64,000 nt of DNA, from NCBI GenBank assembly GCA_026225945.1, contig JAMJFZ010000239.1, positions 24,577,501 through 24,641,500 on the forward strand, in the 5' to 3' direction. Under the pieces are notes generated by a model. That model was not told the origin of the DNA. It saw nothing but the letters and a program-made list of their open reading frames with translations, and made no database searches. The position numbers and the translations under genes are program-made. Position 1 is the stretch's first letter. Each line of letters begins with the position of its first letter. Source of the stretch: Cricetomys ansorgei. Lineage: Eukaryota > Chordata > Mammalia > Rodentia > Nesomyidae. Below are positions 3,405-50,740 of the stretch, piece by piece.

Positions 3405-3600
3405 TCATCCAGCATGCTTTCCCATCAACTGTCCCTTGTCTCAGCCTGGTGGCTACCTTCCTTCCAGCAACTGTCCTCTGTCTCACTAACTCTCCCCTGT
3501 CTGAGCCTTCCCAGCAACTGTCTTCTATCTCAGCCTGGTGGCTACCTTCCCATCCACCATCCCCTGCCACAAACTACCTCTTTTTGAGCCTTCCCTTATT
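3405..3600. repeat. Degenerate minisatellite, about 44-45 bp period
   Basis: About four units are built from a 'caactgtc..tgtctcagcctggtggctaccttcc' theme. An identical 21-bp block starts at 3441 and again at 3530, which is 89 bp or two units. The intervening unit is diverged ('ctcactaactctcccctgtctgagcc'). The pyrimidine-rich strand is the plus strand. A 65-codon minus-strand frame here is only a by-product of the repeat. Confidence 0.75.
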
Positions 3601-24071: not shown

Positions 24072-24213
24072 GTGCTGGGCAGTGGTGGCACAGACCTTTA
24101 ATTCCAATGATCAGGAACAGACTCAGCCAGGTAAATCTCTATGAGTTCAAGGCCAGCCTGGTCTACAGAGTGAGTTCCAGGACAGCCAGAGTTAAAACGG
24201 AAACCCTGTCTAG

Positions 24214-24245
<32 letters not shown>

Positions 24246-41652: not shown

Positions 41653-41673
41653 ATTTTAAAGACCTGAAATTTC
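41653..41673. repeat. Left copy of 21-bp direct repeat (target-site duplication)
   Basis: Begins 'attttaaagacctgaaat' and is identical over 21 nt to 41925-41945. It includes a TTTTAA motif of the kind LINE-1 endonuclease prefers. Confidence 0.93.
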
Positions 41674-41924
41674 CTAAGCCCGGGACAGCCTTGACACCCT
41701 GTGTCCTCTCTCCCAGCCTTCTTCACCGACGAGTGTAAATTCAAAAAGATACTTCTGCCCAACAACTACAATGCCTACGAATCCTACGCGTACCCGGGCA
41801 TGTTCATGGCCCTCAGTAAGAACGGGCGGACCAAGAAGGGGAACCCAGTGTCGCCTACCATGAAGGTAACCCACTTCCTTCCTAGACTGTGACCTCCGGA
41901 GCCCTGCCTCAGCCTCAGAAGCAT

Positions 41925-41945
41925 ATTTTAAAGACCTGAAATTTC
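41925..41945. repeat. Right copy of 21-bp direct repeat (target-site duplication)
   Basis: Identical over 21 nt to 41653-41673. Flanking bases differ ('gcat' before, 'gtagg' after), so the match is confined to the duplication. Confidence 0.93.
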
Positions 41946-42065
41946 GTAGGAACGATGATGGGCAGACAAAAGACAAACTGTGACTGGATTTCGCTGTGGG
42001 ACCAATCCGGTGTCATGCTCTCTCTGAAAGGCAGTTACAGTCATTTCATTTCAAGCCTTGATTCT

Positions 42066-42107
42066 TTCTACAAAGTAGAAAGGTGGTTTTCTACAAAGTA
42101 GAAAGGT
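42066..42107. repeat. Two-copy 23-bp tandem repeat with internal dyad
   Basis: 'ttctacaaagtagaaaggt' occurs at 42066-42084 and 42089-42107. Each copy contains the hairpin ttctac-aaa-gtagaa. Identity is complete over 19 bp, so the duplication is recent or conserved. Confidence 0.9.
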
Positions 42108-46394: not shown

Positions 46395-46590
46395 ATTAAT
46401 TTTTTTATTTTTAATTTTTTGTTTTATTTTAATTTGCTTGTTATTTTTGAAACAGAGTTTCTCTGTTGTATCTCTGGTTGTCCTGGAAGTCACTCTATAG
46501 ACCAGGCTGGCCTCGAACTCACAGAGATATGCCTGTCTCTGCCTCCCAAGTGCTGGGATTAAAGGCATGTGCCACCACCACTCATCCTAA
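46395..46590 (-). mobile_element. B1 SINE, minus strand
   Basis: A T-rich tail (46396-46450) leads into 'gaaacagagtttctctgttg', 'agaccaggctggcctcgaac', 'tctgcctcccaagtgctggg' and 'attaaaggcatgtgccacca'. Complete reverse B1 with few changes, so one of the younger SINEs here. The 63-codon frame across it is not a gene. Confidence 0.95.
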
Positions 46591-49864: not shown

Positions 49865-50596
49865 GCTAGTACCTCAGGAAACACAGGTAAGGACCAGATT
49901 TGTATCACAAAACCCTGAGTGCAGTTTCAAATGCTTCTCAAAAGTCAATATTGCTTCCTGTTAAAACTCTTATACTCTTGTTATTTTAGCAAGTTTATCA
50001 GAGTTTAATAAGAGACTAAGCCTAAACATAGAAGTGGAAAGAGCAATGAGGTTTATTTATTTTATTACACAATTAATAGCTTCTCAGTTACTCATATATA
50101 AATTCTAATGTAATTTCAGAACAAGAATTTCACTAAGCTCATTTAAATGCACAATGTTTATAGCATCAGTTTTCTAAAACATAATTGTGAGTGCATGTAG
50201 AATTGCACTAGTAAAATTTGTAAATGTATTATATGCCAGTAGGAAATGTTGTCCTAGGTTTTAAATTAAAAAGCTTCAGAGTGTTGAAATCATTGATTAG
50301 ATTCACAAAACAAAATTATTTCAGGTAATTGTGTTAATTAATTTCTCAGAAAAATTGATACCCCAAGTTACCCCATTTTTGTACACTGTCCAGACTGTCC
50401 TCAGGCAGCATGGCTGTTCTGACACTCTGGAGTCATTCAATGGTAACTCTACTTTCACAGCAGAGAACAGTGCAGCCACAGTTACTGCTGGGACACTTTG
50501 GTGTCTGCAGGAATGTTTTGGGCAGAAGGGATCCAGGATGGCCATGCCATCTGTTTTGAATGGGTTTATTAAATACACAGAGAGCAGGAAAATAAT

Positions 50597-50649
50597 AACA
50601 ACAAGCAGACAGACAGGCAGGCAGGCAGACAGACAGACAGACAGACACA
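50597..50649. repeat. (CAGA)n/(CAGG)n microsatellite
   Basis: Tetranucleotide array with a central CAGG block flanked by CAGA units. It gives overlapping low-complexity frames on both strands (50321-50708), which I do not regard as genes. Confidence 0.92.
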
Positions 50650-50740
50650 CTTTGCAGCCTAAACTGACTGAGAAGACCCTGGCTAGAGAAAACAAAACAA
50701 GCCCTTAACAGTCAGCTCATGTTTCTAATTGACAACATAG

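Follow-up and report, generated by a model that had tools for sequence, protein, structure and literature searches.

Tailless retropseudogenes were reportedly described by Schmitz et al. in 2004. In the compilation of Noll et al. (2015; PMC5322556), which comprises 2,402 human tailless retropseudogenes with a target-site duplication, the sources include tRNAs, snRNAs, 5S, 7SK, mRNAs and other RNAs. Nuclear RNAs are well represented among these sources, with unprocessed tRNAs mentioned by name, and the authors infer internal priming as the way in which the tailless copies arose (PMC5322556). The copies were selected with duplications of 8–35 nt, the stagger in target-primed reverse transcription is given as 8–30 nt, and the consensus of the target is TT/WAAAAWW (PMC5322556). 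A further mark of the class is complementarity between the target and the last 2–18 nt of the RNA (PMC5322556). The 5′ end is nearly complete in the restricted set of 2,402, as a consequence of a filter that the same authors lifted for rRNA and histone copies and for L1. For L1, a looser screen returned 5,593 copies truncated at both ends, against 708 full-length copies and 90 in which truncation affected the 3′ end alone (PMC5322556).

A human survey of templated sequence insertion polymorphisms (TSIPs) distinguishes two classes (Onozawa and Aplan, 2016; PMC5110952). Class 1 combines a duplication of at least 5 bp with a poly(A) tract and a polyadenylation signal, and its insertion site is typically TTTT/A. 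Class 2 is defined there by the absence of a duplication together with microdeletion, microhomology or extra bases. Some TSIPs are known to have been templated by introns (PMC5110952). With respect to LINE-1-dependent insertion sites, a preference for TT/AAAA is reported to be visible in all insertion types with duplications of at least 10 bp, and short duplications are described as rare among mRNA retrocopies made in trans (PMC2912911).

Layout and identity of the insert

Within the window, the whole 64-kb stretch of DNA that was analyzed, we identified a 251-bp insert (41674–41924, plus strand) that carries an apparently unspliced 3′ end of Fgf4. Repeat comparison places it between two copies of the 21-bp direct repeat ATTTTAAAGACCTGAAATTTC, to which no strand is assigned: a 5′ copy at 41653–41673 and a 3′ copy at 41925–41945, which together form an apparent target-site duplication. 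Both copies start with ATTTTAAAG. The last bases of the insert are CAGAAGCAT, and the 3′ copy follows directly. The two copies agree at 21 of 21 positions, which bears out the original prediction that identical 21-bp direct repeats bracket a 251-bp insert. No further exact copy of ATTTTAAAGACCTGAAATTTC is present in the 64-kb window on either strand. Exact direct repeats of at least 18 bp that lie 100–1000 bp apart occur three times in the window, the other two consisting of (CA)n, and none of 100 first-order Markov windows contained a 21-bp repeat at this spacing. The insert also stands out by its base composition, with a GC fraction of 0.55 vs. 0.30 and 0.36 in the kilobases on either side.

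An ungapped alignment of the repeat can be extended to 24 bp, in which one position pairs a C with a G (41653–41676 and 41925–41948), so the original duplication may have measured 24 bp and acquired one substitution later. The insert would then be 248 bp in length. A perfect 20-bp direct repeat, TTTCTACAAAGTAGAAAGGT, is found at 42065–42107, about 120 bp downstream of the insert. Its copies are spaced by 23 bp and it looks like a local tandem duplication.

The first 43 bp of the insert (41674–41716, plus strand) consist of a pyrimidine-rich tract leading into CCCAG. The acceptor-like AG ends at 41716 and the apparent exon begins at 41717. Protein comparison identifies the segment from 41717 to 41892 (plus strand) as the last coding exon of Fgf4, comprising two bases, 57 codons (41719–41889) and a TGA stop codon (41890–41892). 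It is followed by 32 bp (41893–41924, plus strand) that end without an A tail. Based on position, we infer that the two noncoding ends correspond to Fgf4 intron 2, as the 43 bp directly precede the FGF4 frame, and to the Fgf4 3′ UTR. A division into 43 bp of intron-like sequence, 57 FGF4 codons with a stop and 32 bp of 3′ flank had been proposed; the coordinates agree with these lengths, and matches to FGF4 confirm the frame.

A tblastn comparison of mouse hst/kFGF (P0010) with the window aligned residues 146–202 to positions 41719–41889, with 94.7% identity over 57 amino acids (E 2.4e-33). The three other rows of this search had E-values of 1.1 or worse, and no further parts of FGF4 were found in the window. 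The PDB, Pfam and ten-protein comparisons were carried out with 41719–41888, which leaves out the last leucine. Among 32 PDB sequences at E ≤ 0.001, the best match is human FGF4 (1ijt_A, E 3.5e-30), and the FGF family of Pfam (PF00167) matches with E 9.3e-16. Ten FGF4 proteins (nine from rodents and one human chain), chosen among 120 listed, show 84–96% identity to the copy over 56 residues. Over the full 57 residues, the copy shares 55 with each of Rattus rattus, Rattus norvegicus, Grammomys and Phodopus, and 54 with mouse P0010. Published reverse primers for mouse and rat Fgf4 match exactly inside the insert (3 of 3), and none of their three forward partners is present in the window. According to its predicted translation, the insert encodes the last 57 residues of FGF4 and the stop codon.

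State of the copy and its surroundings

No A tail is present between the 3′ end of the insert and the 3′ repeat, and neither AATAAA nor ATTAAA occurs anywhere in the insert. Together with the lack of any other FGF4 part in the window, this agrees with the original prediction, which had noted the absence of a poly(A) tract and of an upstream exon. RNA structure was considered as a clue to the position of the 3′ end and was dropped, as the insert does not fold better than shuffled sequences (z 0.96; 171 of 200 shuffles equally or more stable).

Two residues of the copy differ from all ten FGF4 proteins at sites that are constant among these ten (E to K and R to P). The splice junction appears altered as well. 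For this comparison we used open reading frames that contain exon 3 only (P0001–P0003, P0005, P0007, and P0008; six of the nine matches), leaving out P0004 and P0006, which read in from the preceding exon; P0009 is also outside this set. In all six, Q and a complete codon precede the residues that the alignment places opposite F-F of the copy (H-F and T-F in two of the six), and the Q probably represents the intronic CAG. In the copy, only two bases separate the AG from TTCTTC, so one base seems to have been lost after the acceptor. With this apparent loss included, at least three changes have accumulated in approximately 176 exon bases, vs. none in the 21-bp repeat.

In view of the two replacements and the apparent loss of one base, a pseudogene fragment is the most likely identity of the copy. 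A functional FGF4 or a usable exon was considered and appears unlikely, given that the replacements affect sites constant in all ten proteins and that one base of phase seems to be missing at the acceptor. Judged from its sequence, the copy is likely to be without evident function and to be decaying as a pseudogene fragment.

Searches beyond the insert returned little. The window contains no Rfam match at the gathering threshold. It does contain two B1-like SINEs, at 46438–46578 (141 bp, 86.5% identity) and at 24074–24223 (153 bp, 77.8% identity), both compared with a B1 consensus. These SINEs suggest rodent DNA and, taken with the murid-like residues of the FGF4 copy, a murid or a close relative as the host. 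A stop-to-stop frame of 135 codons at 50301–50708 probably exists by chance; close to its end, it contains what resembles an (AGAC)n-type repeat. A search for relatives in viral contigs gave none, as none of 11 pattern matches was confirmed. A partial match of 21 residues in a Flagellimonas contig was taken as chance and was not used. Six short strings from the noncoding ends had no match in literature text.

Origin of the insert

We interpret the insert as a tailless retropseudogene, formed by LINE-1-type insertion of an internally primed, 5′-truncated and unspliced Fgf4 RNA, and assign this reading a probability of roughly 60%. The clean 21-bp duplication suggests that the target was cut with a stagger and that both strands were then filled in, as occurs in LINE-1 target-primed reverse transcription, and its length falls within the 8–30 nt stagger of that process as well as within the 8–35 nt required of tailless retropseudogenes. 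As short duplications are rare in mRNA retrocopies made in trans, the duplication lends additional support to this reading. So does the lack of both a tail and a polyadenylation signal, as tailless retropseudogenes share these two traits, and an unspliced template fits with the good representation of nuclear RNAs among their sources. Truncation at both ends, as in this insert, is common among L1 copies in the looser screen (PMC5322556). The insert carries only the 3′ end of FGF4 and therefore does not have the nearly complete 5′ end of the restricted human set; as the filter was lifted by its own authors, we regard it as a screening rule and not as a definition.

The original prediction held that a standard LINE-1 product would be spliced and tailed. 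This is too narrow a view, since a tailless class is known (PMC5322556), and the combination of unspliced and untailed looks odd only next to classical processed pseudogenes. One of the two origins it offered instead, in which reverse transcription of unspliced Fgf4 RNA starts from an internal priming site and yields a copy without a tail, fits best and corresponds to a named, published class; the other, templated break repair, is less favored, as class 2 TSIPs are described without target-site duplication (PMC5110952). Against the retropseudogene reading stands the consideration that genomic DNA would give rise to the same insert as the putative RNA intermediate.

Fgf4 is expressed in germ-line and early embryonic cells, and LINE-1 can be active in them. 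In a cell of this kind, LINE-1 ORF2p would nick the target, reverse transcription of a nuclear Fgf4 pre-mRNA would be primed within its 3′ UTR, and copying would stop inside intron 2. A second nick approximately 21 nt away, followed by fill-in, would then generate the duplication.

The endonuclease site is the atypical element of such a scenario. At the repeat edge, a sense insertion would have used TC/ATTT (2 of 6 positions in agreement with TT/AAAA) and an antisense insertion AC/GAAA (3 of 6). Both are at background level, as at least three of six positions match at 32% of the flanking positions. Considering that the TT/AAAA preference is seen with duplications of at least 10 bp (PMC2912911), the missing edge motif is unusual here. 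A better site is found within the left repeat at a distance of 5 nt from the edge; it agrees with the motif at five of six positions when read in the sense orientation (TT/AAAG) and at all six in the antisense orientation (TT/AAAA). Within 5 nt of an edge and on either strand, however, at least five of six positions match at 763 of 1920 flank placements, and a perfect match is found at 108 of 1920 placements in the flanks and at 3587 of 63520 across the window (approximately 5.6%). At these frequencies, the internal site is a hint at most, and the 5-of-6 match near the edge was dropped as support for LINE-1.

The missing edge motif also favors the templated patching of a staggered double-strand break. 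Here, nicks about 21 bp apart would leave overhangs that are filled in, and a 251-bp Fgf4 segment, derived from pre-mRNA or genomic DNA, would be joined without the LINE-1 endonuclease. The lack of a tail or polyadenylation signal and the retention of the apparent intron are consistent with this, as is the length of 251 bp, which lies within the 73–414 bp of experimental templated insertions that are enriched for transcribed sequences (PMC5110952). The perfect duplication argues against it, as the class of TSIPs attributed to break repair (class 2) is reported without target-site duplication (PMC5110952). A patch with a filled-in stagger is conceivable, and as the explanation for this locus we consider it possible, if rather unlikely. 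A bolder reading is an intermediate class of templated insertions, in which a fragment of nuclear pre-mRNA patches a widely staggered germ-line break, leaving a long duplication without a tail or LINE-1 edge site and relocating an exon with the splice acceptor still attached; the existence of such a class seems doubtful to us.

The same motif data bear on the orientation of a LINE-1 insertion. If the inserted RNA had been an antisense transcript spanning the 3′ end of Fgf4, with priming at the left side of the insert, the right edge would agree slightly better with the consensus (AC/GAAA, 3/6 vs. 2/6 for sense), and the TT/AAAA located 5 nt inside the left repeat has the antisense orientation. 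Yet both points are within background, the perfect site sits at the wrong end to prime an antisense copy, and no poly(T) is present at 41674; we know of no antisense Fgf4 RNA, and regard this origin as highly improbable. A DNA source, in the form of a segmental duplication or a transposed genomic fragment next to a 21-bp repeat of other origin, would account for the unspliced content. It does not agree with the drop in GC from 0.55 to 0.30 and 0.36 in the kilobases next to the insert, with the failure to find the rest of FGF4 in the window, or with a unique edge repeat of a kind not expected by chance (0/100 Markov windows), and is therefore very unlikely. Lastly, the locus has been seen in one sequence only, as would be the case for an artefact of assembly or cloning. 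Such a join is not expected to produce a perfect 21-bp duplication and should be equal to the parent, but two residues of the copy deviate at sites where all 10 FGF4 proteins agree, so we give an artefact hardly any credence.

Comparison with described systems

In the literature on Fgf4 and on the mechanism, no prior description of the fragment was found among titles and abstract openings, a search that provides weak evidence of absence. If the tailless retropseudogene reading is right, the locus is a clean single example of LINE-1-type machinery acting on an unspliced developmental transcript and relocating an exon along with the acceptor that belongs to it. Intron-retaining protein-coding RNA would then join the sources of tailless copies, and the insert would show how fragments of an exon with its acceptor could seed exon shuffling. 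A class of templated patches, if real, would provide exon shuffling with a ready-made mechanism. The insert itself is solitary, decayed and without signs of use, and is most likely a fossil by-product rather than a functional gene.

Gene retrocopies are exemplified by the FGF4 retrogenes of dogs. Like these and other processed pseudogenes, the insert is a transcript copy, as we read it, that lies elsewhere in the genome and has a target-site duplication. Processed pseudogenes have had their introns removed and carry poly(A), whereas the insert retains an apparent intron end, is untailed and measures only 251 bp. Retention of introns along with a target-site duplication is described for gene copies mobilized by Penelope in a bdelloid rotifer (PMC3846280). 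Those copies are framed by Penelope terminal repeats and occur in another host, while here the Fgf4-like 251 bp lie directly between the 21-bp repeats.

With TSIPs, the insert shares a short segment templated from a distant locus and a seemingly random place of insertion (PMC5110952). It has the duplication of class 1 but no tail, signal or edge motif, and its 21-bp duplication sets it apart from class 2, so that it formally fits neither class as defined in that survey (PMC5110952).

The closest resemblance is to the tailless retropseudogenes (PMC5322556), a truncated, RNA-derived class that has no A tail, bears duplications of the same size range and includes mRNAs and nuclear RNAs among its sources. 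The insert differs from the restricted published set in its 5′ truncation and in that the TT/WAAAAWW consensus is not found at its edge (PMC5322556). It differs further in its source, which looks like an intron-retaining protein-coding pre-mRNA; the main text of PMC5322556 uses neither the word "unspliced" nor the word "pre-mRNA". We thus regard the insert as a further case of a known genomic by-product, to which the intron-retaining protein-coding source would add a modest extension.
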